Shown here in pieces: positions 40,114-55,069 of a DNA stretch of 64,000 bases. The translations under genes and the position numbers were made by a program. Positions within the stretch are counted from its first letter, which is position 1. The number at the start of each line of letters is the position of its first letter. The notes under the pieces were generated by a model, which was not told the origin of the DNA, did no database searches, and saw only the letters and a list, made by a program, of their open reading frames with translations. Origin of the DNA: Flavobacterium lotistagni (GTDB taxonomy: Bacteria; Bacteroidota; Bacteroidia; Flavobacteriales; Flavobacteriaceae); NCBI RefSeq assembly GCF_011392125.1, contig NZ_JAAJBU010000004.1, positions 186,001 through 250,000 on the forward strand, written 5' to 3'.

Positions 40114-40695
40114 TTACGGATTTTGCAGTTTTTTTAGAATTTCTTCTGCTTGAATCTTAGCTGAAGTAAGCTCTCGGTTTTCAATTACATAATCACTTTT
40201 TGCGATGCGCATTGGGTCGGTCCACTGGTTGTTGATGCGACTCAGAATGGCTTCCCTGCTAGTCTGGTCACGCAACAACACTCTTTCTATTCTGCTTTCC
40301 AATGGCGCGATCACGGTAATAATTTTATCACAATCTTTATAACTTCCACTCTCAAAAAGTATCGCGGCTTCTTTAATAATAATTGGACAATTTTGTTGGG
40401 ATGACAACCAACTTTCAAAATGAGCTTTTACCGCCGGGTGAACAATTTCGTTCAATAAACTTAGCTTTTCAGGATTGGAAAAAACCAAGTTTGCTAGTTG
40501 CTTTCTATCAATTTTATTGTCAACCAACTCCACCCCAAAAGTCTTTACTATTTGTTGCTGAATTGAAGCTTCATCGATAATTTTCTTAGCTTCATCATCA
40601 GCAATATAAACCGGAATTCCTAACGATTTGAAATGCTTAGCAATAGTAGTTTTTCCGCTACCAATGCCTCCGGTAAGCCCAATGATTTTAGTCAT
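40114..40695 (-). CDS. coaE: Dephospho-CoA kinase
   Basis: A 193-residue P-loop kinase catalysing the last step of coenzyme A synthesis. The Walker A motif is GLTGGIGSGKTTIAKHF at residues 6-22, followed by VYIADDEAKKIIDE, where the Asp binds the substrate, and by RVLLRDQTSREAILSRINNQ near 140, the lid. Standard length. The ATG overlaps the stop of the glycosyltransferase gene by 4 bp, implying translational coupling. Confidence 0.95.
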   Translation of the reverse strand: MTKIIGLTGGIGSGKTTIAKHFKSLGIPVYIADDEAKKIIDEASIQQQIVKTFGVELVDNKIDRKQLANLVFSNPEKLSLLNEIVHPAVKAHFESWLSSQQNCPIIIKEAAILFESGSYKDCDKIITVIAPLESRIERVLLRDQTSREAILSRINNQWTDPMRIAKSDYVIENRELTSAKIQAEEILKKLQNP

Positions 40696-41690
40696 TTTTT
40701 AAAAAATAGTTCCGGAAATGCTGATTCCGGTTGTTGTTTTAAAACGTTGATTCGAATGAAAGATTGCAAAAAACCCATACCATAACCATGGAATTGTTTC
40801 CAAGTAGCAATAACGGCTAGAAATCCGACTTTTAAGCTTTTGTTTTGCGCAGAAGCAACTATCATCAATACAAAAAAGTAGCAACAATAAAGTTTCATTA
40901 AAAAATCTTCTGCAAAAATCAACAACAATAGTGAACTATAAAGTCCTAAAATAAAAAAGGTTGGAAAAAAATAAGACCATTTGTTATGCTCAGGATACCA
41001 ACTATTCAAAATCGGTCGAGCCTTCCCAAATTTCTTAACTTGGTGCGTGAATTTTTCCCAATCGATACGGCGCTTGTGGTAAACATAGACTTGTGGAAAC
41101 AATCTAGTTTGAAAACCTAAATTCCATAAACGGATGGATAAATCTGGATCTTCACCCGGATGAATATTACCGAAACCTCCGGAAGCCTCAAATGCTTTTC
41201 TGGAAATGCCCATGTTGAAACTTCGAGGCTGAAACTTGTTTATTTTTTCAGAACCGCCTCGAATACCACCTGTAGTTAGAAAAGAAGTCATTGAAAAATT
41301 GATGGCTTTTTGAATATCAGTAAATGAATCTAGCGCTTTATCAGGGCCGCCATAGCAATCGACATAATTCATCTGAAAAGCTTTAACCAATTCTGATAAA
41401 TAGTTTCTGGGAATGATGCAATCTGAATCGAAAAGAATAAAATAATCGCCTTTAGCTTTACGCATTCCGAAATTTCTTGAATCGCCAGGCCCGGTGTTCT
41501 CTTTGAAATAGTATGCAATGTTGAGTAAGCCTGCATATTTCTCTACCACTTTATCTGATTTATTGACAGAACCATCTTCTACGATTACCACTTCAAACTC
41601 CTGATCGAATTCTAGGTTTGACAAACTCTGCAACAGTTCTTCAGTTTCCTCTGGACGATTATAAACCGGAATTACAATAGAAAATAACAT
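40692..41690 (-). CDS. Family 2 glycosyltransferase
   Basis: A 332-residue GT-A enzyme: SIVIPVYNRPEETEELLQSL at the N terminus, EVVIVEDGS, and the metal-binding DSD in FILFDSDCIIPRNYL near residue 90. A hydrophobic C-terminal part (residues 240-285) holds one or two membrane helices, so it is membrane-attached. It probably adds a sugar to a surface glycan or lipid; donor and acceptor are unknown. The ATG at 41688-41690 is used. It leads coaE with a 4-bp overlap. Confidence 0.9.
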   Translation of the reverse strand: MLFSIVIPVYNRPEETEELLQSLSNLEFDQEFEVVIVEDGSVNKSDKVVEKYAGLLNIAYYFKENTGPGDSRNFGMRKAKGDYFILFDSDCIIPRNYLSELVKAFQMNYVDCYGGPDKALDSFTDIQKAINFSMTSFLTTGGIRGGSEKINKFQPRSFNMGISRKAFEASGGFGNIHPGEDPDLSIRLWNLGFQTRLFPQVYVYHKRRIDWEKFTHQVKKFGKARPILNSWYPEHNKWSYFFPTFFILGLYSSLLLLIFAEDFLMKLYCCYFFVLMIVASAQNKSLKVGFLAVIATWKQFHGYGMGFLQSFIRINVLKQQPESAFPELFFKK

Positions 41691-41705
41691 AAGCACCAAT
41701 TTGAA

Positions 41706-41713
41706 CAAAGGTA
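41706..41713 (-). promoter_or_regulatory. Probable -7 box of the glycosyltransferase-coaE operon
   Basis: TACCTTTG on the minus strand matches TAnnTTTG, 15 bp upstream of the start codon. A TTG lies 14 bp further up, shorter than the usual 17-23 spacing. Confidence 0.45.
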
Positions 41714-41721
41714 AACTTTAT

Positions 41722-41751
41722 AAAAAACAAAAACCACCTTAACAGGTGGCT
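41722..41751 (-). terminator. Terminator of the GEVED T9SS gene
   Basis: On the minus strand GCCACCT, loop GTTA, AGGTGG followed by TTTTTGTTTTTT, 26 bp after the stop. Confidence 0.87.
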
Positions 41752-41774
41752 TTAGTCGTAAAAATTAGGAGTTG

Positions 41775-44171
41775 TTACTCTTTACTAATTTTAAAGGTCT
41801 TTGTCTTGTCGTTTACAAAAACTTTTACCAGATAAGTTCCAATAGGTATATTACTTAAATTAATATTCGCAGAGGTTGTTAACACTGTTTGATTAATAAC
41901 TTGTTGCCCCAACAAATTATAAACCAATACCGCAGTAATTGGTTGCTTGTTACTAATCGATAGATAATCATTCACAGGATTCGGATAATAATTTAAGTCC
42001 GAAAAATCAAAATTATTATTGTTTAACGTGGCGCTCCAAGCAGCTATCTTAAAGGTACCTTGTACATTGTTACCATACTCCCAAACTCGGGCATAAATAG
42101 TTTGTCCAGCGGTTAAGCCTGTCAAATTTAATTTGGAAAATGAACCTACTCCTTCATCGTCACTACAACCGATTGCTGTTAGGTTGTCACAACTTCCTGT
42201 GAATACACTCATACCTGAATCAATAAATGGAGAGCCAGGATTGGCTTGTAATTCAATAGTGATTTTACCATCGGTAGGAACAATTGTACTAAACCAAACA
42301 TCACCTCCGAAACCTAAAGCTGCACAAGTAGGATTGGGTATTCCTATGCTTGTTGATGCATCTAAGTTGCTGGCAATGATGGCGTGTTCAGCAAATGTTG
42401 TTCCCGCAGTCAATTCTATCGCATTGATACACTCGTCATTGGCTATTGGTGGTGGAAGTGTTGTAAAAGTGTATGGTCCAATCCAATTGCTGTACTGATT
42501 GTCTACACATACGGAACGAACATAAAATTCATAGCTTGTGCCATTGGTTAAATCAGAAATTAATAGCGGACTGGTGCTATTTGGATGTGATGGCAAACCA
42601 GTTGGTAAACCAGAACCTGCTGGACCAAAATGAAGATCAGAGCCTAAAGGATTACAGACAGAAACCCAAGTCAAGGTGGCATTGGTAGCATTTACGCTAC
42701 TGGTTCCAAGATTTGTTGGAGCTATACAAATACTACCCTCTTCAATTGTAATATCATAATCCTCCGTTTCTCCGTATTGATAATTCGCGCAAGGATCAAT
42801 ATTTGTTGCAAGAGTATTCCAAACATCCCTGATTCTCATCCTGTGCAAACCCGGCAAAGCATTACAATCTAAGGTAATTTGAAAAGTTCCTGTTCCACCA
42901 CCACCAATCTCGGCGGTACTTCCTACTCTTTCATTAGCTTCAAAAAAACCATTATCATTGTAATCAATCCAAGCGGTCACGTTTTGCTGTCCGAAACTTC
43001 CCACTGTTACATTCAATTCATAAGTATAACCCATTTGAAGTGATGCGGTGTAATTTTCTTGCCCAGTAAAATAGGTATAAGCCGGATTCACTGGTTCAGT
43101 ACCGCTGTTATTAGACAAAGTAGTCCCTGTGATATTTACATTCGAAATTAGATCTCCATCAGTTTTCCCAGTGGTGTAGGTTGGTGTGCAAAAACAAAGA
43201 ATTGCACTATTAACAGTCACTTGAACTGGAGTACTAATAGCGCTTTCACTTCCACAACTTACCAAACATTGATAGTAATTCGCGAGCGTTTGATTCGTTG
43301 TTAAAATCGAATTATTGGCTAGAGGAATGTCTGAATATTCTACACCATCAAAAGAGGATTGCCATTGGTATGAAACTCCAAAACCTGCAGTTGGATTTTC
43401 TAAACTCAACTGAAAATTAGTTCCGGCGCATACACTTGATACACTTGAAACGGTATTACCTGGAACAGGAACTCCATTACAAGGTGGCCCTAGGGTGAAA
43501 GTAAATTTTTGCCCAACTAAAAACTCAGTACTGTTGATGAGGTTATTAGCAGTAATATTCGATGATGTAGCCGAAGTCAAGTTTGGTGTAATACTCAGAA
43601 ATGAGCCGGAATCATTTAAGCCAACAGAAGCCGATAAGTTTCCAACAGGATTCATGGTAGGCCCGTAAATAAATTCAATTACTCCAGTTGTTTCATACAA
43701 TCGCATTTTGAATGAACCAAATGCAGTAGCACTTTGAGAACCATTCCCTCCTAAATTGATATTGTCCCAACCTATTTCTAATATTTGATCTGGTGTTGAT
43801 CCAGACAATGCATATTGAATAGACCCTGTGTTGCGATTGTGATCATCCCAAAAAGCGGCTATTAAAGGTCTCTGTGCTGCATTATTAGCCAAAATATTGG
43901 TCCAAGAACTACCAGCAACAGGGTTTCCTAATCGAATAAAGCCGTTCGTACTGATGCTGAAAGTAGTATAAGTGGCACTACCATAACTAAAATCAAAACC
44001 TATTGGAATATCATTTTGTGAACCATCATCACCTGCTGCTGTTGAAGGAGTTCCAACCACTGGTGTATATGTTTCGGTTGATTGACTAAACACATAATCA
44101 GCTACAGACTGCGCTTGAAGGCCAAATCCATTGAAAGCTAAAAATGAAAATAGAATAGTAACTTTTTTCAT
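41775..44171 (-). CDS. T9SS type A sorting protein with GEVED and fibronectin III-like domains
   Basis: A 798-residue exported protein. A signal peptide ending FGLQAQ is followed by a domain with IGFDFSYGSATYTTFSISTN and FYGPTMNP-like strands (25-225), an Ig-like part (230-320), a GEVED domain with AWIDYNDNGFFEANERVG and YGETEDYDITI (330-480), a fibronectin III-like domain (485-570), and a PPC-like beta-sandwich (575-720). It ends in a type A sorting domain, YYPNPVNDYLSISNKQ to FKISKE. It is exported by T9SS, probably to the surface. The C-terminal sandwich is shared with the three genes upstream. Function unknown; adhesion is plausible. Confidence 0.9.
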   Translation of the reverse strand: MKKVTILFSFLAFNGFGLQAQSVADYVFSQSTETYTPVVGTPSTAAGDDGSQNDIPIGFDFSYGSATYTTFSISTNGFIRLGNPVAGSSWTNILANNAAQRPLIAAFWDDHNRNTGSIQYALSGSTPDQILEIGWDNINLGGNGSQSATAFGSFKMRLYETTGVIEFIYGPTMNPVGNLSASVGLNDSGSFLSITPNLTSATSSNITANNLINSTEFLVGQKFTFTLGPPCNGVPVPGNTVSSVSSVCAGTNFQLSLENPTAGFGVSYQWQSSFDGVEYSDIPLANNSILTTNQTLANYYQCLVSCGSESAISTPVQVTVNSAILCFCTPTYTTGKTDGDLISNVNITGTTLSNNSGTEPVNPAYTYFTGQENYTASLQMGYTYELNVTVGSFGQQNVTAWIDYNDNGFFEANERVGSTAEIGGGGTGTFQITLDCNALPGLHRMRIRDVWNTLATNIDPCANYQYGETEDYDITIEEGSICIAPTNLGTSSVNATNATLTWVSVCNPLGSDLHFGPAGSGLPTGLPSHPNSTSPLLISDLTNGTSYEFYVRSVCVDNQYSNWIGPYTFTTLPPPIANDECINAIELTAGTTFAEHAIIASNLDASTSIGIPNPTCAALGFGGDVWFSTIVPTDGKITIELQANPGSPFIDSGMSVFTGSCDNLTAIGCSDDEGVGSFSKLNLTGLTAGQTIYARVWEYGNNVQGTFKIAAWSATLNNNNFDFSDLNYYPNPVNDYLSISNKQPITAVLVYNLLGQQVINQTVLTTSANINLSNIPIGTYLVKVFVNDKTKTFKISKE

Positions 44172-44230
44172 ATATCAAGTATTGAATTGATTTCTAAAGT
44201 AATAAAAAAACTAATACAAAGAAATAATAT

Positions 44231-44258
44231 AAAAAAAGCCGCCCATTAAAGGCGGCTC
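44231..44258 (-). terminator. Terminator of the 856-residue T9SS gene
   Basis: AGCCGCC (44237-44243) pairs with GGCGGCT (44251-44257); on the minus strand a run of T residues follows. Confidence 0.88.
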
Positions 44259-44279
44259 TTAAAATTTATTAATCAAAGA

Positions 44280-46850
44280 TTACTCTTTTACAACTTTAAT
44301 TGTTTTAGTTTGATTGTCAGCTGTTACTTTAACGAAATAAGTTCCGCTCATTAAATGCGACATGTCAATTTGAGACATATTATTATTTAATGACTTGGCA
44401 ATCACTTGTTGACCCAATAAATTAAATATAGCTACATTCGAAATTGTTTTATCTAAAGACAAGTTCAAAACATTCTTTGCTGGGTTTGGATAAACTCTGA
44501 AATTAGCACTTTCAAAAACACTATTTGCTAATGAAGCATCATAAGCAGACAATTGGAATTCGCCATCAGCAGAAGATCCCCATTTCCAAACACCGATGTA
44601 AAGTGTTTCACCTGGTGTAAGATCAGCTAAAACAACTTTTGAAAAGTTACCATTTCCATCATCGTCATTGCAACCAATTTCAGTTAAAGCATCACAAGTG
44701 CCTCTGTACACACTAACCACTGAATCGGTCATCAATGTTCCGTCTGTTGTGTCTGTTTCAATAGTTAAAGTACCAGAAGCTGGTGCTACTACGCTATACC
44801 ATACATCATTTGATCGGTTGGTTTGGCAGCTAAAAGCAGGCAGTCCTGTAGCAGATGTTGAACTCAAATTAGACCCAATGATTGGAGAAGTAGCAAACTC
44901 TCCACCAGCAGTAATTTCAATAGCACCACTACAATCATCATTTGCAGGTGGCGGTGGTGGTGTTCCAATACATACATCAAAGGTTGAAGTTTGTCCAGTG
45001 GTCGCAGTCCATGAATACACTCTTAAATAGTAGGTGCTTCCAGGAGTCAAACCTGCAACAGTACTAGCATTAGGATCCGAACAAGTATTAGGAACTAATG
45101 TCAAACCTGAACAATCACCCGTCCATAAAGAATGGTATAAATCGGTGGTTCCTCCTGTAATATTCAGTAAACTAATGGTATGAATTTCACTACTTGCTAC
45201 AAAACTAAACCAAATATCGTCGTCTTCTGTTCCTCCACAAGCATCTGAATCAACTGAAGACGGAGTAGCAGAAGCAATAGTTCCTGCTGTAACTTCAGTA
45301 CAGCTAGCATCAGCATTTACGTTTAAAACATAAGCACCATCGCATTCATCGTTAGCTGGTGGTGGAGGCAAAGTTCCTACACAAACGTCGAACGTTGTAT
45401 CTTGTAGAGGCAAATTGGTATAGGAGTATACTCTAATGTAATAAGTATCACCTGGTGTTAATCCAAAATCGATACTATTCTCTGGATCGGAACATGAATT
45501 AGGAACCAATGTCAATCCGCTACAGTCACCTGACCATAAAGAGTGGTACAAATCAGTTGTTGAACCAGCTACATTATTTAGACTAATAGCATGAGCCGTT
45601 TCTGTTGCTACAAAAGAAAACCAAACATCATCATCAGCAGTTCCGAAACAAGTTGTGTCAGTTACTGAAGAACCTGTAGCTCCAGACAAAGTTCCAGTTG
45701 TTGTTGAACCACAAGCCATATCTGAATTAACCGTTAATGAATAGGCACCATCGCATTCGTCATTAGCAGGTGGTGTTGCTGCTTCTGCACAAGTAATAGC
45801 TAAATCAAAAACTACTGCTGGGTCACCATTAATATAGTTACCAACGTGCATAAAGTAAGTTGTTCCTAACGTTGAAACAAACGATACCGAAGCAACTGTT
45901 TCGCCAGTTCCAGCAGCAATCAAACAATCACCAACTGTAAAACCTGCACATGTGCCATCAGTACTAGGGTAAACTTCAATTTGTGGAAATTGCACGGTTG
46001 CGGTTGCTGTCACGGTAATAACTTGACCATCGCCAACAAAGCTATACCAGATTTCATCTCCAATGGTTCCTAAACAAGAAGCATCTGTTCCACCTGTAGC
46101 ACCTTCTGTTACCTGATTGGTTAAGGTATCACCGCAATTCAATACAATGGCATCTTCACATATATCATTTGTTGGAGGACAAGCGTAAGTTACAAGTGGC
46201 CCACTAGTTATATTACAAATCGGAGTTTGGTCATTAGTTACTGTCAGATTAACAGTTGTTCCGAACGGATAAGGACCAAAAGTAACTAAATTGGGAGAAG
46301 AAACCGATTGAGAAGCACTGCCTTGATCGTCGGTTACAGTTATTGAAGCAGCATCACCAACATTGGTTATGTCTACATCGATAGTAAAAGTTGAAGACCC
46401 GCAATCATAGGCTTTGGCGAAAGTAGCCGTAGGCATAATGCATGGCGGAACTCCACAAACATACGAGCGCGTTCTAAAGTCTTGATTGTCGGTACATAAA
46501 TCGTCAGCATGTGTGTAGAAACGAATTTCTCCTGTTACATCGGCTACCCAAGTTAATGGTGAAAGTCCGAAAGTTGCTGCTGAAGTACCTTCATCACTAC
46601 TAATGGTGATTAAATCAGTAGGCAATGAACTACTAAAAGTGTATGTTTCGCCTTGAATGACCGTTATTCTAGAGTATTCACCAGCATAGCCCGCTGTTGT
46701 AGCAACTGTTGTAGCAATTCCATCACAAGTAGCTGCCGTTATTGTAGCGGTAGGCCATTGCCCGTTAGGGTCAGTTAAACATTGTGCATTACTAACGGAA
46801 ATTCCCATGATTGCCATACACAACAATAGTTTCAGTGTAATTTTTTTCAT
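44280..46850 (-). CDS. Modular T9SS type A sorting protein, 856 residues, repeated PPC-like domains
   Basis: A signal peptide (LLLCMAIMGISVSNA/Q) is followed by a sandwich domain (25-130) with YAGEYSRITVIQGETYTFSS, an Ig-like linker, and four ANDxC units beginning with PPTNDICEDAI, PPANDECDGAYSL, PPANDECDGAYVL and PPPANDDCSGAIEI, each about 135 residues. Inside each unit, EDDIWFSFVAS, VAGSTTDLYHSLW and YYIRVYSYT recur. The end is a sorting domain NFRVYPNPAKNVLNLSLDK..TIKVVKE. The two middle units and the last have close relatives in the adjacent 1017-residue gene. Secreted, surface-located; binding partner unknown. Confidence 0.9.
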   Translation of the reverse strand: MKKITLKLLLCMAIMGISVSNAQCLTDPNGQWPTATITAATCDGIATTVATTAGYAGEYSRITVIQGETYTFSSSLPTDLITISSDEGTSAATFGLSPLTWVADVTGEIRFYTHADDLCTDNQDFRTRSYVCGVPPCIMPTATFAKAYDCGSSTFTIDVDITNVGDAASITVTDDQGSASQSVSSPNLVTFGPYPFGTTVNLTVTNDQTPICNITSGPLVTYACPPTNDICEDAIVLNCGDTLTNQVTEGATGGTDASCLGTIGDEIWYSFVGDGQVITVTATATVQFPQIEVYPSTDGTCAGFTVGDCLIAAGTGETVASVSFVSTLGTTYFMHVGNYINGDPAVVFDLAITCAEAATPPANDECDGAYSLTVNSDMACGSTTTGTLSGATGSSVTDTTCFGTADDDVWFSFVATETAHAISLNNVAGSTTDLYHSLWSGDCSGLTLVPNSCSDPENSIDFGLTPGDTYYIRVYSYTNLPLQDTTFDVCVGTLPPPPANDECDGAYVLNVNADASCTEVTAGTIASATPSSVDSDACGGTEDDDIWFSFVASSEIHTISLLNITGGTTDLYHSLWTGDCSGLTLVPNTCSDPNASTVAGLTPGSTYYLRVYSWTATTGQTSTFDVCIGTPPPPPANDDCSGAIEITAGGEFATSPIIGSNLSSTSATGLPAFSCQTNRSNDVWYSVVAPASGTLTIETDTTDGTLMTDSVVSVYRGTCDALTEIGCNDDDGNGNFSKVVLADLTPGETLYIGVWKWGSSADGEFQLSAYDASLANSVFESANFRVYPNPAKNVLNLSLDKTISNVAIFNLLGQQVIAKSLNNNMSQIDMSHLMSGTYFVKVTADNQTKTIKVVKE

Positions 46851-46909
46851 ATAAAAATATTGAGAAGTTAATATTTCATAAATGTATAAAAAATAAGTTA
46901 GGATGAAAT

Positions 46910-46934
46910 AAAAAAAACCACCCGAAGGTGGTTA
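46910..46934 (-). terminator. Terminator of the 1017-residue T9SS gene, TTCG tetraloop
   Basis: On the minus strand AACCACC, loop TTCG, GGTGGTT and a T run; the C(TTCG)G closure is an especially stable RNA tetraloop. Confidence 0.88.
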
Positions 46935-46959
46935 AAATTTATAAAGTGATTTTAGAAGA

Positions 46960-49900
46960 TTACTCTTTTACAACTTTAATCGTTTTAGTTTGATTGTCAG
47001 CAGTTACTTTAACGAAGTAAGTTCCGCTCATTAAATGCGACATATCAATTTGTGACATACTACTGTTTAATGATTTGGCAATCACTTGTTGACCTAACAA
47101 ATTGAATACAGCAACATTTGTGATGTTTTTGCTGTAAGAAAGATTCAAGTAATTCTCAACAGGAACTGGGAAAGCTTTGAAGCTGCTATTATCAAAAGAC
47201 TCATTAGCCAATAAAGAAGCATCGTAAGCAGACAACTGGAATTCACCATCTGATGAAGTTCCCCATTTCCAAACACCAATGTACAAAGTTTCTCCTGGTG
47301 TTAAGCCTGACAAAACAACTCTAGAGAAGTTGCCATTACCGGTATCATCGTCACAACCTACTTCTACTAATGATCCGCAGCTTCCTCTGTAAACAGTTAT
47401 TACAGAATCAGTCATTGCAGTTCCTGGAGCAGCATCTGTTTCAACTGTTAATGTCCCTGAATCTGGTGCAATTACAGTATACCATACATCGTTGAAACGA
47501 TTAGGTTGGCATGAGAAAGCTGGCAAACCTGCTGTTGTGGTTGAGCTAACATTCGAACCAACCACTGGAGAAGTAGCAAACTCCCCGCCTGCAGTAATTT
47601 CAATAGCACCAGTACAGTCGTCATTAGCTGGTGGTGGTGGTGGTGTTCCTACACAAATATCAAATGTTGAAGTTTGACCTGCTGTAGCTGTAGAACTATA
47701 TACTCTTATGTAATAAGTTTGACCCGCTACTAAACCAGTAGGAACGCTAGCATTGTTATCAGAACAAGAACCTGCAACCAGTGTCAAAGCACCACAATCT
47801 CCAGTCCAAACAGAATGGAATAAATCAGTAGTTGAACCAGCAACGTTATTTAGATTAATTGCTTGAATAGCATCAGTAGCAACGAATGAGAACCAAACGT
47901 CGTCATCTTCTGTTCCACCACAAGCAGCAGTATCAACATTCGAAGGTGTAGCAGAAGCAAGAGTAGCCGATTCAAAAACAGCACAACCCATATCTGAATT
48001 AACTGTCAAAGCAATTGCACCATCGCACTCATCATTAGCTGGTGGTGCTGGTGGTGTTCCGATACAAATATCAAATGTTGAAGTTTGACCTGCGGTAGCT
48101 GTCCATGAATAAACTCTTACATAATAAGTATCTCCAGGAGTCAAACCAGCAGCTAAGCTGTTGTTAGGATCTGAACAAGTATTGGGTACCAAAGTCAAGT
48201 TATCGCAATCAGCTCCAGTCCATACTGAATGATATAAATCTAAAGTAGAACCAGCAACATTGTTTAAGTTGATGTAATGTGAAGTTCCAGTAGCCACAAA
48301 TGAGAACCATACGTCATCATCTTCTGTTCCGCCGCATGCAGCAGTATCAGTATTAGAAGGGGTTGCAGAAGCAATGGTACCTGAAGTAAATTCGGTACAA
48401 ACAGCATCAGCATTAACATTTACAGCAATAGCTCCAGCACAGTCATCGTTAGCTGGCGGTGGTGGTGGTGTGCCGATACATACATCAAATGTAGAAGTTT
48501 GACCTACAGTAGCCGTCCAAGAATAAACTCTTAAGTAGTATGTTTCTCCCGGAGTCAATCCGTTAGCAGTACTGTTATTTGGATCTGAACATGTATTTGG
48601 AACCAAAGTCAAGTTATCGCAATCAGCACCTGTCCAAACTGAATGGAACAAATCTGCTGTAGAACCAGCCACATTAAGTAAGCTAATGGTATGTGAAGCA
48701 TTAGTAGCTACGAAAGAAAACCAAACGTCGTCATCTTCTGTACCTCCACAAGCAGCTGTATCAGTAACAGAAGCACTAGCAGCTGCAATAGTACCTGGAG
48801 TAACTTCTGCACAGCTGAAATCTGGGTTAACAGTCAAAGCAATTGCACCTAAACACTCATCATTTGCCGGAGGACAACCTGTCAAAAGTTGTGCAGGGCT
48901 TACCAATGCACATCCGGGAGTTTGATCGTTAGTAACAGTAATTACTACTGATGTACCAAAAGCATAAGGACCGAAAGAGACTACACCAGCAGCGCTTAGT
49001 GATTGTGACGCACTACCTTGGTCATCAGTAATAGTAACCGAAGAGGCTGAAGCCAAACTAGTCACATTAACATTTACAGTGAAAGTTGTATCTGAAGGGC
49101 AGTTGGCCACTTTTTCAAAAGTAGCTACAGGCAAACAAACTGAAGGATCTGACAAACTGATGTTGAACTCACCTTGCTCAGAACCACCGCTCCATACTTG
49201 AACATAATAAGTCTCGCCTGCAGTCAATGTTGTTAATGATTGTGTGAAAGGCGTTGTCAAATTAGCATTACATGCTATACTAGTAAGCGCATCACATGCT
49301 CCTGAGTAGATTGCAAAATTTGCAGATGTCATTGTTCCGATGGTTACTGTGCAATCTACAGTTGATGATGGCGCAACAAATGAGAACCAAACATCCTGAA
49401 TAGAACCAAAGGTGTCACAGGTTGGTTGTGTAGCAGTAACGTCACCGTATGAGTTGTCTGAAGTTAAGATAGAACCATCTACTTCAAGATTCAAAGCAGT
49501 CAAACAAGTTTGGTTTTCAACCGCTGGTGGATTTACAGCATCGCAAGTAACATCCATGGTGTAGGCTCCTGTACTTGTGGCATTCCAACCTTCGATGGCA
49601 ATGTAATAGGTGGTCGAACCATCTGAATTGAAACTCAATCTGGAACGGGTAGTCAGACCAACACCACAAGAGTTGTCGTCATCATTGGCAATCACCAAAG
49701 TAAGGTTGCCTGAAGTTCCAGTGTAAACCATGACAGAGGTGTCATAAGAAGAGTTACACAAATTAAGGGTTACAGTTTCTGGCGAACCCGAACCTGTGTA
49801 AGAATACCAAACGTTTGGGGCATCCATGTCTGCTCCAAAACCATCAGGGGCATTGTCTTCGTCGAGAGTCGCTCCTGCCGTAGTACCGGAGAAATTGTTC

Positions 49901-50013
49901 CCACAAGAAATTGCCTCTGCATTTGCAAAGTTGTCATTGGCTTGTGCGTTCATTGCCACTGAAGACAATAACAAACCAACACCCAACAAAAGATTAAAGG
50001 TAATTTTTTTCAT
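46960..50013 (-). CDS. Modular T9SS type A sorting protein, 1017 residues, tandem 138-residue repeats
   Basis: The largest of the four adjacent T9SS proteins. After the signal peptide (LLLGVGLLLSSVAMNA) come a module with APDGFGADMDAPNVWYSYTG (25-155), a second with CDTFGSIQDVWFSFVAPS (165-285), and an Ig-like module with TITDDQGSASQSL (290-375). Four ANDxC units then start at about residues 380, 517, 655 and 793. The first three are near-identical (TACGGTEDDDVWFSFVAT, LFHSVWTGADCDNLTLVPN); the fourth is divergent with GLPAFSCQPNRFNDVWY. It ends in the sorting domain FKAFPVPVENYLNLSYS..TIKVVKE. It is probably a surface-exposed, Ca- or glycan-binding type beta-sandwich array, but no function is known. 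Confidence 0.92.
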   Translation of the reverse strand: MKKITFNLLLGVGLLLSSVAMNAQANDNFANAEAISCGNNFSGTTAGATLDEDNAPDGFGADMDAPNVWYSYTGSGSPETVTLNLCNSSYDTSVMVYTGTSGNLTLVIANDDDNSCGVGLTTRSRLSFNSDGSTTYYIAIEGWNATSTGAYTMDVTCDAVNPPAVENQTCLTALNLEVDGSILTSDNSYGDVTATQPTCDTFGSIQDVWFSFVAPSSTVDCTVTIGTMTSANFAIYSGACDALTSIACNANLTTPFTQSLTTLTAGETYYVQVWSGGSEQGEFNISLSDPSVCLPVATFEKVANCPSDTTFTVNVNVTSLASASSVTITDDQGSASQSLSAAGVVSFGPYAFGTSVVITVTNDQTPGCALVSPAQLLTGCPPANDECLGAIALTVNPDFSCAEVTPGTIAAASASVTDTAACGGTEDDDVWFSFVATNASHTISLLNVAGSTADLFHSVWTGADCDNLTLVPNTCSDPNNSTANGLTPGETYYLRVYSWTATVGQTSTFDVCIGTPPPPPANDDCAGAIAVNVNADAVCTEFTSGTIASATPSNTDTAACGGTEDDDVWFSFVATGTSHYINLNNVAGSTLDLYHSVWTGADCDNLTLVPNTCSDPNNSLAAGLTPGDTYYVRVYSWTATAGQTSTFDICIGTPPAPPANDECDGAIALTVNSDMGCAVFESATLASATPSNVDTAACGGTEDDDVWFSFVATDAIQAINLNNVAGSTTDLFHSVWTGDCGALTLVAGSCSDNNASVPTGLVAGQTYYIRVYSSTATAGQTSTFDICVGTPPPPPANDDCTGAIEITAGGEFATSPVVGSNVSSTTTAGLPAFSCQPNRFNDVWYTVIAPDSGTLTVETDAAPGTAMTDSVITVYRGSCGSLVEVGCDDDTGNGNFSRVVLSGLTPGETLYIGVWKWGTSSDGEFQLSAYDASLLANESFDNSSFKAFPVPVENYLNLSYSKNITNVAVFNLLGQQVIAKSLNSSMSQIDMSHLMSGTYFVKVTADNQTKTIKVVKE
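47230..48880 (-). repeat. About four 414-nt coding repeats within the 1017-residue T9SS gene
   Basis: The + strand shows repeated boundaries near 48880, 48465, 48048 and 47635, with long stretches of nearly identical DNA in the first three units, for example the complement of the ACGGTEDDDVWFSF codons and of the CSDPNN region. The last unit (47230-47635) has diverged. The DNA similarity, not only protein similarity, implies recent tandem duplication or ongoing gene conversion. Confidence 0.82.
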
Positions 50014-50038
50014 TGTTGTTTTTTTAGTTAATAATTTC

Positions 50039-50046
50039 CAAAAATA
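50039..50046 (-). promoter_or_regulatory. Possible -7 box of the 1017-residue T9SS gene
   Basis: TATTTTTG on the minus strand matches TAnnTTTG, 25 bp before the ATG. Confidence 0.45.
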
Positions 50047-50071
50047 GTAAAATAAGATTGACTTATAAACA

Positions 50072-50097
50072 AGAAAACCACCCTAATTGGATGGTTC
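50072..50097 (-). terminator. Terminator of the 581-residue T9SS gene
   Basis: AACCATCC and GGGTGGTT (minus strand) pair around AATTA with one G-T pair, then TTTTCTTG. It lies 25 bp after the stop. Confidence 0.72.
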
Positions 50098-50121
50098 TCA
50101 GATTTTTTAACTAAATAGATT

Positions 50122-51867
50122 TTACTGCTTCAATATTTTAACAGTTTTAACCAGATTATCTGCATTGATTTTAACCATATACACACCTTTTGCAAGTGTT
50201 GATAAATCAATTTGCGAAATATGAGCGGTAGAAGATTTAGTAAAGACTTGCTGTCCAACCATATTAAATACTTCTACATTTGAAATATCCTTATCATAAT
50301 TAAGATGCAAAACATCTGTCACTGGGTTAGGATATGTTTCAAAAGTTCCGCTATCAAAAGTACTATTACTAAGCGATGGATTAGCTAATCTGAGAGTGAA
50401 TGTTCCTTGCTCAGCAGCATTGCTCCATACTTGCACACGATATACATTTCCTGCAACAAGGCCTGTCAAAGATTCTGTAGTCGCGGTTGTTAAGTTGGCG
50501 TTACAAGCACCTGTTACTGCTTCTAAAGCACCGCAATCTCCTGAATAAACATTAAAGTTTGCTGAAGTCATGAATCCATTGGTTACTGTTACATCAACTG
50601 TTCCCTCTGTGGGTGCAACAAAGGAGAACCATACATCTTGAATCGAACCAAAAGTATCGCAACTTGGCTGCACCGAATTAATTGTTCCAAAAGAGTTGTC
50701 AGATTGTACATCTGTGTTGTCGATTTCTAAAGCAAGGGCAGTATCGCAAGATTGGTTCTCAACTGCAGGCGGGTTGACTTCACTACAAGTTACCTCCATT
50801 GTAAAATCACCCAAACTAGTGGCATTATAACCTTCTACCGCAATATAATAAGTAGAGGTTCCATCTGAAGTAAATGATGTTCTCGACCTAGTATTTAAAG
50901 GAAATGCTCCGCAAGTTGCATCATCGTCATTTCCTCCGATTAAAGCAAAAGAACCCGGTGAACCTGTATAAATCAATACCGAAGTATCATAAGCAGACCC
51001 GCATAAATTCAGGGTGATGGACTCTGCAGCACCAGAACCAGTATAACTGAACCAAACATTGGGCGCATCCATATCGGCTCCAAAACCATCTGGAGCATCA
51101 TTCTGATCTAAAGTTGCAGCCGCTGTGCTTCCGGTTAAAGTATTTCCGCAAGCAATCGCAATCGCATTTGCAAAATCATCATTGGCTGGAGGGCAAGCAG
51201 CCTGAGCAAAATTAGCACTAGTAACTGTACATACATCAGAATCGTCGTTTACCGCTGTAAGTGATACTGTTACTCCATTGTCGTATGGACCAAAAGTAAG
51301 CAAACCAGTTCCGTTAGCTACTTGAGGTGTACTTCCTGCTTGATTGTCAGTGATTGTAATAGCAGCTGCAGAACCCATTGATGTTACATCCGCAGTGACA
51401 TTGAAAGTGGCTTCAGGACAATTTGAAACTTTAGTAAAGGTAATCTCTGGCAAAGTACAAGGCGCAATTCCACAAACAATTCTTCTGGCTCTGAAAGTTT
51501 GATTTTCTGTACATATTTCGTCGGCGTGTGTATAAAAACGAACTACACCATCAATATCAGCTACCCAGGTCAAGGGCGAAGTTCCAGATACCGTTGCAGT
51601 CACTCCATCATCAGAGCTGATGGTGATGTAATCCGTTGCAATGGAGCTAGAAAAAGTATAGGTTTCTCCTGCTACAACATTTACGTTAGAGTATTCTCCA
51701 GCGTAACCAAGGGTAGTAATTGAATTTACTGTAATTCCATTGCAGGTAGCCGGCGTGTAGGTAGCGTCAGGATACAGACCGTTACCTGCTTCCAGACACT
51801 GAGCATTCACCGAGGCGGTAAACAATACTGCAATGACAGAAAATAGATTAAACGTAATTTTTTTCAT
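50122..51867 (-). CDS. Modular T9SS type A sorting protein, 581 residues
   Basis: Begins MKKITFNLFSVIAVLFTASVNA with a signal peptide. The first module (20-125), with YAGEYSNVNVVAGETYTFSS, matches the start of the 856-residue gene. An Ig-like module follows, then one with DAPDGFGADMDAPNVWFSYTG and one with CDTFGSIQDVWFSFVAPT, which match the start of the 1017-residue gene. The end is a sorting domain, FETYPNPVTDVLHLNYDK..VKILKQ. It is thus a mosaic of the two neighbours. The ATG at 51865-51867 opens onto the signal peptide; an earlier start at 51978 would overlap purM. Surface protein of unknown function. Confidence 0.9.
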   Translation of the reverse strand: MKKITFNLFSVIAVLFTASVNAQCLEAGNGLYPDATYTPATCNGITVNSITTLGYAGEYSNVNVVAGETYTFSSSIATDYITISSDDGVTATVSGTSPLTWVADIDGVVRFYTHADEICTENQTFRARRIVCGIAPCTLPEITFTKVSNCPEATFNVTADVTSMGSAAAITITDNQAGSTPQVANGTGLLTFGPYDNGVTVSLTAVNDDSDVCTVTSANFAQAACPPANDDFANAIAIACGNTLTGSTAAATLDQNDAPDGFGADMDAPNVWFSYTGSGAAESITLNLCGSAYDTSVLIYTGSPGSFALIGGNDDDATCGAFPLNTRSRTSFTSDGTSTYYIAVEGYNATSLGDFTMEVTCSEVNPPAVENQSCDTALALEIDNTDVQSDNSFGTINSVQPSCDTFGSIQDVWFSFVAPTEGTVDVTVTNGFMTSANFNVYSGDCGALEAVTGACNANLTTATTESLTGLVAGNVYRVQVWSNAAEQGTFTLRLANPSLSNSTFDSGTFETYPNPVTDVLHLNYDKDISNVEVFNMVGQQVFTKSSTAHISQIDLSTLAKGVYMVKINADNLVKTVKILKQ

Positions 51868-51925: not shown

Positions 51926-53107
51926 CTATTTATACTCAAACAACCCGTAAACACTATTGATTGTAAGCCTTTTCTCATCTGAAGCGACTACCCTACCAAT
52001 AATCTGTGCCGGAACACCAAAAGATTCCGATATAGTAATAATTTCCTGAGCAGTACTTTCTGGCACATACAATTCCATACGATGCCCGCAGTTAAACACT
52101 TGGTACATTTCTTTCCAGTCGGTTTTAGACTGATATTGAATGAGTTCAAACAGAGGCGGAACCGGAAAAAGATTGTCTTTTATGACATGAAGATTTTCGA
52201 TAAAATGCAGGATTTTGGTCTGTGCACCACCACTACAATGCACCATACCGTGAATATCTTTTGCAGTAAATTTTTCTACTATTTTTTTGATAATCGGCGC
52301 ATAGGTTCTGGTTGGGGAAAGCACTAATTTTCCAGCGTCAATCGGCACGTTAGGGATGAAATCCGTCAATTGCATTTGACCGGAATACACCAAATCTTCG
52401 GGCAACAAATCGTCATAACTTTCGGGATATTTTTTAGCCAATGCATTTGAAAAAACATCATGCCGGGCCGAAGTCAGCCCATTGCTTCCCATGCCACCGT
52501 TGTATGATTTCTCGTAGTTCGCCTGACCGAATGAAGCCAAACCTACAATCACATCGCCCGCTTGAATATTCGCATTGTCTATCACCTCTGCCCTCTTCAT
52601 TCGCACTGTTACCGTAGAATCGACAATAATCGTACGAACCAAATCACCAACATCGGCTGTTTCGCCACCTGTGGAATAAATATTAACACCAAAGGTTTTT
52701 AGTTCAGAGATGAGTTCTTCGGTTCCATTGATAATCGCCGCAATGACTTCACCTGGAATACGATTTTTATTTCTTCCGATAGTAGACGACAGCATAATAT
52801 TATCGACAGCACCCACACACAAAAGATCGTCTATATTCATAATCAGGGCATCTTGGGCAATGCCTTTCCAAACCGATAAATCTCCGGTTTCTTTCCAGTA
52901 CATATAGGCTAAAGACGATTTGGTTCCGGCTCCATCAGCGTGCATCACCAAACAATAATCTTCATGACCTGTGAGATAGTCCGGGACAATTTTGCAGAAA
53001 GCTTTGGGAAATAAACCTTTGTCGATATTTTTGATGGCTTGGTGCACATCTTCTTTTGATGCAGATACGCCACGACCGGCATAGCGTTTAGAATTTTCTG
53101 AACTCAT
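51926..53107 (-). CDS. purM: Phosphoribosylformylglycinamidine cyclo-ligase (AIR synthetase)
   Basis: A 393-residue enzyme of purine synthesis closing the imidazole ring. It starts RYAGRGVSASKEDVHQAI and has the PurM ATP-binding blocks VMHADGAGTKSSLAYMYWKE and IMNIDDLLCVGA, then STGGETADVGDLVRTI, the Gly-rich loop IVGLASFGQANYEK and GMVHCSGGAQTKIL. It is longer than the 345 residues of E. coli PurM, as is usual in Bacteroidota. A -7 box lies 20 bp before the ATG. It is upstream of, but not obviously tied to, the T9SS genes. Confidence 0.92.
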   Translation of the reverse strand: MSSENSKRYAGRGVSASKEDVHQAIKNIDKGLFPKAFCKIVPDYLTGHEDYCLVMHADGAGTKSSLAYMYWKETGDLSVWKGIAQDALIMNIDDLLCVGAVDNIMLSSTIGRNKNRIPGEVIAAIINGTEELISELKTFGVNIYSTGGETADVGDLVRTIIVDSTVTVRMKRAEVIDNANIQAGDVIVGLASFGQANYEKSYNGGMGSNGLTSARHDVFSNALAKKYPESYDDLLPEDLVYSGQMQLTDFIPNVPIDAGKLVLSPTRTYAPIIKKIVEKFTAKDIHGMVHCSGGAQTKILHFIENLHVIKDNLFPVPPLFELIQYQSKTDWKEMYQVFNCGHRMELYVPESTAQEIITISESFGVPAQIIGRVVASDEKRLTINSVYGLFEYK

Positions 53108-53127
53108 TGTAGTGTGTTGTTGTGGCG

Positions 53128-53135
53128 CAAAGATA
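53128..53135 (-). promoter_or_regulatory. Probable purM -7 box
   Basis: TATCTTTG on the minus strand matches TAnnTTTG, 20 bp upstream of the purM ATG. It equals the pyrF box exactly. Confidence 0.5.
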
Positions 53136-53162
53136 GGAAAATGACTTTTAGAAACAGAGGTA

Positions 53163-53960
53163 TTAGTTCTCCAACACCAATATTTCTACACGGCGGTTTT
53201 CTTCTTCTTCCTGCGCATTTTTCTCTGGAATCGGATGAATTGGGTCGCTTGTACCGTAACCTTTATAAGTCAAGCGTTTGCGATTGATTTTTTTGTTCAC
53301 CAGATAATTGTAGATGGCCCGGGCACGCATCACCGAAAGTTCATTAATGTCAAACACTTTCTGGCAGCAAATATGACCTTGGATTTCGATTTTAAGTTTC
53401 GGATTGTCTTCTAAAGCACACAATAATTCTACTAGAACCGGTCGTGATTTAGGCAAAATTCTCGGTGTCATGTTGTAGAAATAAATGTTTGGAAGCTTGA
53501 TCTTCTCGCCCACTTTCGCTTGTTTGAACCTTTCACCTAACGGAAGTAAATCTTTGTCTAAAACCACTGCGGTTGGAAGAATTTCCTTTTTCTGCTGGTA
53601 AACCAAAAGTACTTTTCTGTTTTCAGCTTGTACATCGGATTGCTCAAAATCTTCGCCAAAACCTTTGACTTCGAATCCGTCAATTACTTTGATGTTTTTC
53701 AGTTTCAAGTAATCCAGAATGGTATGAATGCGTTTCAAGGATAAAGAGTCATTATAGGTATTGGTTCCTTTCCAATCGCAGAAGCCATAGATTTTCGTGA
53801 CTTCAATTTTAGGATTATTGGCAACCCAAGTTTGCAGTTGTTCGATGGCCGTTGGATTGAGCTGATGTTTGTCGAAATCAAAGAAGACCGTGAGTTGGTC
53901 TTGAGCAAAAACACAAGAAACATTCAATAGGAACAACAAAATAAAACCGTATTTCTTCAT
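53163..53960 (-). CDS. OmpA-domain protein with two OmpA-like modules (downstream of a paralogue)
   Basis: A 265-residue protein with a signal peptide (LLFLLNVSCVFA/Q). The first OmpA-like module (20-125) holds FFDFDKHQLNPTAIEQLQTW, IYGFCDWKGTNTYNDSLS and ENRKVLLVY. A second, at 150-265, holds LKIEIQGHICCQ, LSVMRARAIYNYLVNKK, RLTYKGYGTSDPIHPIPEK and ENRRVEIL, the peptidoglycan-binding pattern with conserved Asp and Arg. It follows a close paralogue, 22 bp upstream, so a duplication in one operon. Both are probably periplasmic cell wall-binding proteins. No barrel is present. Confidence 0.85.
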   Translation of the reverse strand: MKKYGFILLFLLNVSCVFAQDQLTVFFDFDKHQLNPTAIEQLQTWVANNPKIEVTKIYGFCDWKGTNTYNDSLSLKRIHTILDYLKLKNIKVIDGFEVKGFGEDFEQSDVQAENRKVLLVYQQKKEILPTAVVLDKDLLPLGERFKQAKVGEKIKLPNIYFYNMTPRILPKSRPVLVELLCALEDNPKLKIEIQGHICCQKVFDINELSVMRARAIYNYLVNKKINRKRLTYKGYGTSDPIHPIPEKNAQEEEENRRVEILVLEN

Positions 53961-53981
53961 CGCTATTGAATTTTAAGGAAG

Positions 53982-54866
53982 TTAATGCGACACTATCAGA
54001 ATTTCAACCCGGCGGTTGGCCGCCCGTTGGGCTTCGTCTTTCTCTGGAATCGGAAAGATAGGTTGCGTACTACCGAAACCTTTATAAGTAAGGCGCTTTT
54101 CGTTGATTCCGTTGGCGACCAAGAAATTGTTGATGGCTTTGGCACGTTGGGTCGATAAATCCAATCGGTCGGTCGGCATGCAACACAAATGGCCTTGTAT
54201 TTCGATTTTAAGTTTTGGATTTTTCTGCAAAACAACTAAAAGCTCATACATTTTGCCGCGCGATTCGGGAACGACAATAAAAGTATTGATTTTGAAATTC
54301 AGGTTCTCGATTTTGAGCTTCTCGCCTACTGCCGCTTCACCGAGTTTTTTCATAAAGTCTACGTCGAGTTTGTATTCGGATTTTGTGCCATCGGGATTGT
54401 CTAATGCTAGCTTTTCTGGGTAACGAATGATTTCTCGAATTTCTTCTGCTTTTTCGGGTGCTTTGATGCCGAGGATTTCGTTCTCGCGCGGAATATCTTT
54501 TGCCTCGAGGTAGAACAAAGTGACTTTACGATTTTCTGCTTTGGTTGTTGAAAGTTGATGCAATTCGCCGAAACTTCGGGTTTTGAAATCGTCGCGGATT
54601 TTGATTTGGTCTTTAATTAGGTTGAAAATGGAATTGATGCGCTTTTTTGCCAAAGTATCATTGTAACCGCTGGTGCCGTCTTCATCAGTAAAACCGTGGA
54701 TACCGACGATCTTGACTTCTTTGTTGGCTGCAATCCAATCGCTTAGATTTTTGGTTTCCTTGGAATTGAGTACAAATTTATCGCTGTCGAAAAAAACCGA
54801 AAACTGCTGCTGCCCGAAAACGAAAGCTGAAAAAAGCACACAAACAATTGACAAAACCAGTTTCAT
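53982..54866 (-). CDS. OmpA-domain protein with two OmpA-like modules
   Basis: A 294-residue paralogue of the next gene. The signal peptide is LVLSIVCVLFSAFVFGQ. The first module holds FFDSDKFVLNSKETKNLSDW and IHGFTDEDGTSGYNDTLAKKR (20-130). A spacer with a DGTKSEYKLDVDF stretch follows, then the second module with LKIEIQGHLCCMPTDRLDL, TQRAKAINNFLVANG, RLTYKGFGSTQPIFPIPEKDEAQ and NRRVEIL. Both modules end with the NRR/K-V signature. It probably binds peptidoglycan in the periplasm. It is transcribed with the paralogue downstream. Confidence 0.85.
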   Translation of the reverse strand: MKLVLSIVCVLFSAFVFGQQQFSVFFDSDKFVLNSKETKNLSDWIAANKEVKIVGIHGFTDEDGTSGYNDTLAKKRINSIFNLIKDQIKIRDDFKTRSFGELHQLSTTKAENRKVTLFYLEAKDIPRENEILGIKAPEKAEEIREIIRYPEKLALDNPDGTKSEYKLDVDFMKKLGEAAVGEKLKIENLNFKINTFIVVPESRGKMYELLVVLQKNPKLKIEIQGHLCCMPTDRLDLSTQRAKAINNFLVANGINEKRLTYKGFGSTQPIFPIPEKDEAQRAANRRVEILIVSH

Positions 54867-54936
54867 AAGCAGTTTTATTGGAGAACGAAAGGTAAGAAAA
54901 AATGTTGTTGGTTTCAGAGAATGGCAATACCAACCG

Positions 54937-55010
54937 ATAGCCCTAGCCCCGATAGTAGTGAAAGCCCGCAGCTTTGCGAGGACTTGCAGCGAATAGCGGG
55001 ATCAGCTTCT
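54937..55010 (+). repeat. Dispersed hairpin repeat, copy near glnN
   Basis: GATAGCCCTAGCCCCGATAG, an apical stem CCCGC..GCGGG around GCTTTGCGAGGACTTGCAGC, and AGCGGGATCAGCTTCT followed by an A run. It lies between the OmpA pair and glnN, antisense to both. Confidence 0.83.
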
Positions 55011-55020
55011 AAAAAAACAT

Positions 55021-55053
55021 AAAAAAACCCACACATTCAGTGCAGGTTTTTAA
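55021..55053 (-). terminator. glnN terminator
   Basis: On the minus strand AAAACC, TGCACTGAATGTGTG loop region with a CAC/GTG pair, GGTTTTTTT, 17 bp after the glnN stop. Confidence 0.65.
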
Positions 55054-55069
55054 TAGATTGAATCGGTTC

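Follow-up and report, generated by a model that had tools for sequence, protein, structure and literature searches.

A modular array of four genes for predicted type IX-secreted surface proteins in Flavobacterium lotistagni and its reshuffling between species

The 64,000-nucleotide stretch of the Flavobacterium lotistagni genome analyzed here (the window; contig NZ_JAAJBU010000004.1, positions 186,001 to 250,000) carries an array of four consecutive minus-strand genes, A to D, with open reading frames of 581, 1017, 856, and 798 amino acids. A first-pass annotation of the window had placed the genes correctly and had read them both as products of domain shuffling and as a local system that makes surface proteins variable. 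These two ideas fared differently. Domain shuffling is favored by module strings that differ among all 26 arrays compared and by 3' sequences of paralogues that conflict with orthology, whereas a dedicated or fast variation system is not supported, given the lack of a recombinase family among 18 flanking proteins scanned, the short repeats, and four-fold degenerate sites near chance. We regard it as probable that the array encodes a small family of multi-domain binding proteins, secreted and attached to the surface by the type IX secretion system (T9SS), that occupies a fixed, optional slot in Flavobacteriaceae and owes its diversity to homologous recombination of the ordinary kind among the repeats it contains.

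All four translations begin with what by eye is a signal-peptide-like start, made of lysines and a hydrophobic stretch, and all four end, as had been predicted, in a type A sorting domain (TIGR04183, 47–61 bits against a cut-off of 23). Gene A (50122..51867, minus strand, as are all features of the array) encodes this start followed by modules N, K, Ga, and Gb and the T9SS tail (TIGR04183, 57.6 bits; PF23759, 35.3 bits at residues 370–490). Its start is taken as the ATG at 51867; the mechanical reading frame is longer upstream and would give 618 residues. Module N (51460..51810; YAGEYS...GETYTFSS) has no Pfam match, is shared with gene C by a local module hidden Markov model, and contains strands in a predicted model whose per-residue confidence (pLDDT) is mostly 70–90. 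Module K (51193..51459), about 90 residues and strand-rich in the model, is common to genes B and C. Ga (50776..51192) lacks a separate Pfam match, and Gb (50386..50775) is assigned to PF23759 by Pfam and the module map; together they form a Ga-Gb cassette with 62.5% amino acid identity to that of gene B. The sorting domain, matched by TIGR04183 and PF18962, lies at 50125..50352.

The largest gene, B (46960..50013), carries after its signal-peptide-like start the order Ga-Gb-K-Gc-Gc-Gc-Gd-tail, with five PF23759 stretches (E 5.5e-33) and a TIGR04183 score of 52 bits. Here the Ga-Gb cassette (49162..49941, from BLASTP and the module map) is N-terminal and is followed by K (48874..49161), three tandem Gc modules of 414, 414, and 411 nucleotides (47635..48873; 72–77% DNA identity), Gd (47224..47634), and the sorting domain (46963..47190, TIGR04183 and Pfam). 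Gene C (44280..46850) has the architecture start-N-K-Gx-Gc-Gc-Gd-tail, with three PF23759 stretches (E 2e-22) and TIGR04183 at 61.3 bits; its tandem Gc-Gc-Gd modules, recognized by repeat spacing and the module map, span 44541..45773. In genes with several copies, the Gc-Gd repeats recur every 411 or 414 nucleotides. Gene D (41775..44171) stands somewhat apart: its own parts are an N-terminal domain D1, a GEVED domain (E 3.8e-18, over the cut-off), and weak Ig-like (Ig_7) and fn3 stretches, in the order start-D1-Ig_7-GEVED-fn3-Gd-tail (TIGR04183, 47.1 bits). Its Ig_7, fn3, and PF23759 matches all fall below the cut-off, and its overlap with the other genes lies mainly in the C-terminal part, the last PF23759-like module and the tail.

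These architectures were drawn from local module models built on window sequences, in which Ga and Gx, neither with a separate Pfam match, were grouped with the G modules by mutual similarity; the same models saw no further module-bearing gene in the rest of the window. The kinship of the modules is plain from BLASTP, in which similarity lies far above chance and the best pairs reach E 1.8e-112 (581 and 856 residues), 4.4e-119 (581 and 1017), 0 (856 and 1017), and 1.9e-60 (798 and 856). The modules singled out by the first-pass annotation are thus shared as it claimed, but its letters were not exact: the 1017-residue protein reads ADMDAPNVWYSY and the 581-residue protein ADMDAPNVWFSY.

Different parts of genes B and C have different histories. 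When both genes were compared between the window and L046, a locus from another species, module K had higher DNA identity in orthologues (67.1 and 65.9%) than in paralogues (58.1 and 56.6%), while the reverse held for Gd (orthologues 63.6 and 56.8%, paralogues 73.5 and 79.3%) and for the tail (72.1 and 66.7% versus 80.6 and 83.1%). Thus Gd of window gene B resembles that of its neighbor gene C more than that of its L046 orthologue, and in trees its K groups with the gene B K modules of L046, L049, L052, and L054 (97/97 support). Approximately unbiased (AU) tests, whose p values are optimistic because the groups were named after the first tree had been viewed, rejected for Gd plus tail both a clade of the five B genes (p 3.8e-32) and the union of window B with L046 B (p 1.1e-43), and for K the union of B with C in the window (p 0.007) and in L046 (p 0.003). 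The paralogue columns of L039, in which a gene was compared with itself, were disregarded. Because the 3' modules are alike within a genome while the 5' module follows orthology, we infer that neighboring genes exchange sequence.

Likeness of 3' ends within a genome could instead reflect selection for matching tails, through recognition by the T9SS or by a partner, with no exchange of DNA. High amino acid similarity combined with near-chance identity at the four-fold sites of Gd is what such selection would leave. Yet in the window tail, 16 of 21 four-fold sites are identical (76%; chance 41%), which exceeds the 34–51% found when orthologues flanking the array were compared in the window and L046 (26–39% by chance), and other tails of the same genome, among the matches listed, are only 21–48% identical to the tail region of gene B. 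We consider tail selection unlikely as the explanation. From these sequence comparisons, the last tail exchange in the window lineage may be younger than the species split, and the modules themselves are old.

Comparison of the array between species, with one genome per species, revealed 26 distinct module strings in the 26 arrays upstream of the conserved glycosyltransferase gene GT2, also after merging Gc, Gx, and Gd, a count that module-label noise can inflate and in which the strings of L056 and L096, near contig ends, may be incomplete. Seven loci (L060, L061, L062, L063, L064, L067, and L078) had been left out before the counts as repeat genomes and eight (L031, L034, L036, L038, L043, L047, L053, and L058) for absence of GT2; L001–L030 were excluded from the final map. 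Gene number and length in 60-residue bins alone give 25 classes in the 26 arrays, with L033 and L037 tied. The arrays hold one to four T9SS genes, L044 having three. Uniform module order and copy number, the outcome that the first-pass annotation had set against its own reading, are therefore not what is seen among species.

The Ga-Gb cassette stands directly before the tail in 25 of the 34 Ga-bearing genes, upstream of other modules in six, and is truncated in three. Both placements occur in the window (genes A and B), only the second in L046, L049, L052, and L054, and only the first in L039, L059, L032, and L033. Smaller steps are seen among close relatives: L049, L052, and L054 align at about 79–83% DNA identity over long blocks, interrupted by shifts of 410–411 nucleotides that correspond to one module, in gene B of L054 or gene C of L052, and the array of L059 exceeds that of L039 by a whole gene.

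Could this variety be that of a static paralogue family, which duplicated and diverged with no later exchange and whose shuffling is an artefact of mislabelled modules and gene loss? Some of the Gx, Gc, Gd, and Fn labels, coming from window-built models, are uncertain, and genes A and D keep the same architecture in several species, as such a family would. The changes in Ga-Gb position, however, are independent of the uncertain labels, the single-module shifts are visible in direct DNA alignments, and trees of the 3' modules disagree with those of the 5' modules from the same genes. We hold the static family to be improbable.

How fast the array changes bears on a further alternative, in which a dedicated system reassorts modules within a population much faster than background, as a form of antigenic or receptor variation. 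The many module strings between species, the clean gains and losses of module size, and the likeness of tail modules within genomes would suit it. The longest exact repeat, however, is 30 nucleotides in the window array and at most 44 in the seven arrays measured, and the inverted repeats at the array are short and imperfect (17–24 nucleotides, 83–89%). A scan of 18 flanking proteins, confined to the flanks and with one protein lacking any match, found no recombinase, integrase, or transposase family. Within genomes, four-fold sites are 48–57% identical in Gd pairs (41–45% by chance) and 58–88% in tails (39–50% by chance, on 21–26 sites each), so that those of most shared modules lie near chance. 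Moreover, the 88%-identical pair L038 and L055, aligned over 12 kb, has the same first gene, the rest of the L038 array lying beyond the stretch examined. We therefore think a dedicated system very unlikely. The short exact repeats, the scanned flanking proteins without a recombinase family, and the short inverted repeats argue for slow homologous recombination and not switching, and reshuffling apparently proceeds on the scale of species divergence. An invertible or mobile element was likewise rejected, given the short, imperfect inverted repeats, the 18 flanking proteins without such a family, and a G+C content of the array (37–43%) similar to that of the flanks. Equally improbable is a broader proposal, in which the slot upstream of GT2-coaE would serve throughout the family as a site for diversifying surface decoys or receptors in response to phages, predators, or hosts, and in which modules would come and go, and tails be exchanged, so quickly that strains of one species differ.

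In the recombination account that we favor, unequal crossing-over would add or remove modules of about 137 residues in frame, and tandem duplication would add or remove whole genes. Gene conversion or crossing-over between neighbors would transfer the 3' end, that is, the last module and the sorting tail, and leave the 5' part gene-specific. Several points weigh against this account besides the optimism of the AU tests and the small number of tail sites. Four-fold identity in the window Gd pair is close to chance (48% versus 43%), so the exchanges are hard to date. The unconstrained K tree puts window gene A, on a long branch, inside the B group, and a B-only clade was not rejected (p 0.058). 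The trio L049, L052, and L054 is mixed, with some modules following orthology and others not. Finally, most arrays were found by a search with gene A, so arrays lacking Ga-Gb are under-sampled.

The main repeat of the array, a unit of about 137 residues, belongs to Pfam PF23759 (GBD_T9SS_assoc), which is matched by Gb, Gc, and some Gd modules. The scores of genes A, B, and C (35.3, 114.1, and 80.1 bits) exceed its cut-off of 27, and that of gene D (26.1) falls just below. A first-look scan of the genome, which may miss modules, listed ten PF23759 matches, eight of them in the array; one of the two listed outside it is a 2522-residue open frame on contig C2 (461107–466344), which also matches a T9SS tail. 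An AlphaFold model of Gc, computed from an alignment of 40 of the 75 available modules, reached a mean pLDDT of 87.9. Its best matches in a VIA search were the collagen-binding domains of ColH and ColG (Z 12.4, root-mean-square deviation 2.1–2.3, 104 residues aligned), which fill the top six rows (Z 10.8–12.4) ahead of PliG (Z 10.1) and SIDT1 (Z 9.1); in Foldseek the first six ColG rows gave E 8e-5 to 5e-4 and TM 0.50–0.60 on the query. The model thus suggests that Gc shares the beta-sandwich fold of PPC and collagen-binding domains.

This likeness to the ColG and ColH domains comes from the predicted Gc fold: a sequence search of solved structures returned nothing below E 0.3 for the modules, the sole weak match being a metalloprotease, and gene A retrieved tail-containing chains. 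We name the modules PPC-like and not PPC members because the weak matches of genes B and C to PF04151 (PPC; 23.5 and 16.6 bits) do not reach its cut-off of 25.9. A model of the entire gene A protein (mean pLDDT 70, predicted TM score 0.45) was set aside; its matches among solved structures mix many beta-rich proteins, with ColG second. The PPC domains of the ColG and ColH collagenases are collagen-binding domains, according to one report (PMC6168687). The predicted fold points to a binding role for the array proteins and does not imply the ligand; they are probably adhesins, and a Pfam scan of the four proteins found no protease domain. A literature search found no paper naming PF23759.

Export through the T9SS is suggested by the tails, from which secretion and surface attachment of all four proteins would follow. 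The genome encodes the two components of the machinery that were searched for, SprA (2769.7 bits) and the PorU-type T9SS sortase (1403.1 bits), both over the cut-off. Sorting tails are frequent genome-wide, with 136 matches, 134 of them over the cut-off; a false tail match on the histidine kinase of the window (row W_g5) was disregarded.

Modular T9SS surface proteins are known from Porphyromonas gingivalis, whose gingipains and HagA are T9SS-exported adhesins of combinatorial modularity for which one study concluded domain rearrangement and genetic exchange and mentioned gene conversion (PMC5266723). HagA, RgpA, and Kgp, as described there, share with the present array a type IX C-terminal domain, export by the T9SS (for the array, a prediction), and repeated homologous modules common to several genes and variable in order and number (PMC5266723). 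On sequence grounds the array resembles the HagA/gingipain case of domain rearrangement, in that module order and number vary at one locus and paralogues appear to exchange. The two differ in that the Porphyromonas modules described there are of the CAD (IPR011628) and DUF2436 types, some of them carried by proteases, their repeats are identical, and they vary between strains (PMC5266723), whereas the Flavobacterium array has PF23759/PPC-like modules in four adjacent genes at a conserved slot, with variation known between species. The Porphyromonas picture of modular T9SS adhesins may thereby be extended to environmental Flavobacteriaceae and to a different module type. Within the genus, Flavobacterium psychrophilum has arrays of leucine-rich-repeat proteins, tandem genes for repeat-containing surface proteins, whose modules are leucine-rich repeats and not PPC-like as here. 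Among the titles and abstract openings listed by literature searches in an openly licensed library, none describes the present locus. Its value lies in being a mapped, optional locus with a conserved GT2 neighbor, at which the shuffling of domains in T9SS surface proteins can be traced across the genus and beyond, including Psychroserpens and Winogradskyella, and which offers both single-module steps and genomes without the array.

The slot itself is anchored by the GT2 gene (40692..41708, minus strand, PF00535), outside the array, which lies upstream of the order GT2-coaE-histidine kinase-response regulator. GT2 is present in 384 of 398 congeneric genomes (E <= 1e-80). To survey occupancy, the region upstream of GT2 was taken from 40 genomes hand-picked from the highest-scoring GT2 matches listed, two of which (L067 and L078) were already known to have the array. 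Module-bearing T9SS genes were found in four (L067, L078, L082, and L096) and none there in the other 36. L096 has a quite different occupant, one 1717-residue open frame with seven local Fn-type matches, one Gd, and a T9SS tail. Psychroserpens (L048, L051, and L057) and Winogradskyella (L056) likewise have arrays at this position; these four non-Flavobacterium loci have an additional gene of 318–322 residues between GT2 and coaE.

In the 36 array-free loci, the next gene on the GT2 strand encodes 396–403 residues in 24, 268–280 in ten, and another protein in two; in L080 the gene of the 396–403-residue class lies 6.7 kb from GT2, with opposite-strand frames between. A 396-residue example (L049) matches trans-2-enoyl-CoA reductase families and is presumably of the FabV type; two shorter ones (L055 and L086) match an enoyl-ACP reductase family, which we take to be of the FabI type. 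They are preceded by a 550-residue gene with a RecF/RecN/SMC match. Upstream of GT2 in L055, L066, L071, L086, and others, the two unrelated enoyl reductase types, of about 396 and 268 residues, occur singly or adjacent (Pfam, three examples), a co-occurrence that looks like replacement in progress.

The window (51926–57259) and L046 (3155–9699) differ from this pattern, their upstream block consisting of AIRS/purM-like, two OmpA-family, and glutamine synthetase genes where others have RecN-type and fabV-type genes. In these two genomes, a rearrangement has split the two halves of the gene order of their relatives. Sequences read by eye place the fabV-type gene of the window genome on contig C9, behind a 550-residue RecF/RecN/SMC-like gene and with no array after it, from which it follows that the array remained, or travelled, together with GT2-coaE. 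In L046 the position expected for gene A is taken by an acyltransferase gene (PF01757).

Terminator-like hairpins follow genes A (50073..50099), B (46916..46933), C (44234..44260), and D (41730..41753), all on the minus strand. Because the scan as a whole is not above chance (6 found, 7.0 expected), these four are candidates solely by their position directly behind the genes. A sigma-70 scan was also at its expectation (28 found, 28.7 expected). Promoters were sought with the Bacteroidota-type −7 motif; it occurs with at most one mismatch 30–36 nucleotides before all four genes and was rejected, as shuffled intergenic sequence has one in 80–95% of trials.

One locus among those left out for absence of GT2, L031 (CALPUN020000074.1), is labelled a metagenome-assembled genome of Bifidobacterium breve, yet it carries the Flavobacteriaceae locus, with genes of 403, 295, 550, and 397 residues followed by N-K-Ga-Gb-T; its bin or its name is probably wrong.

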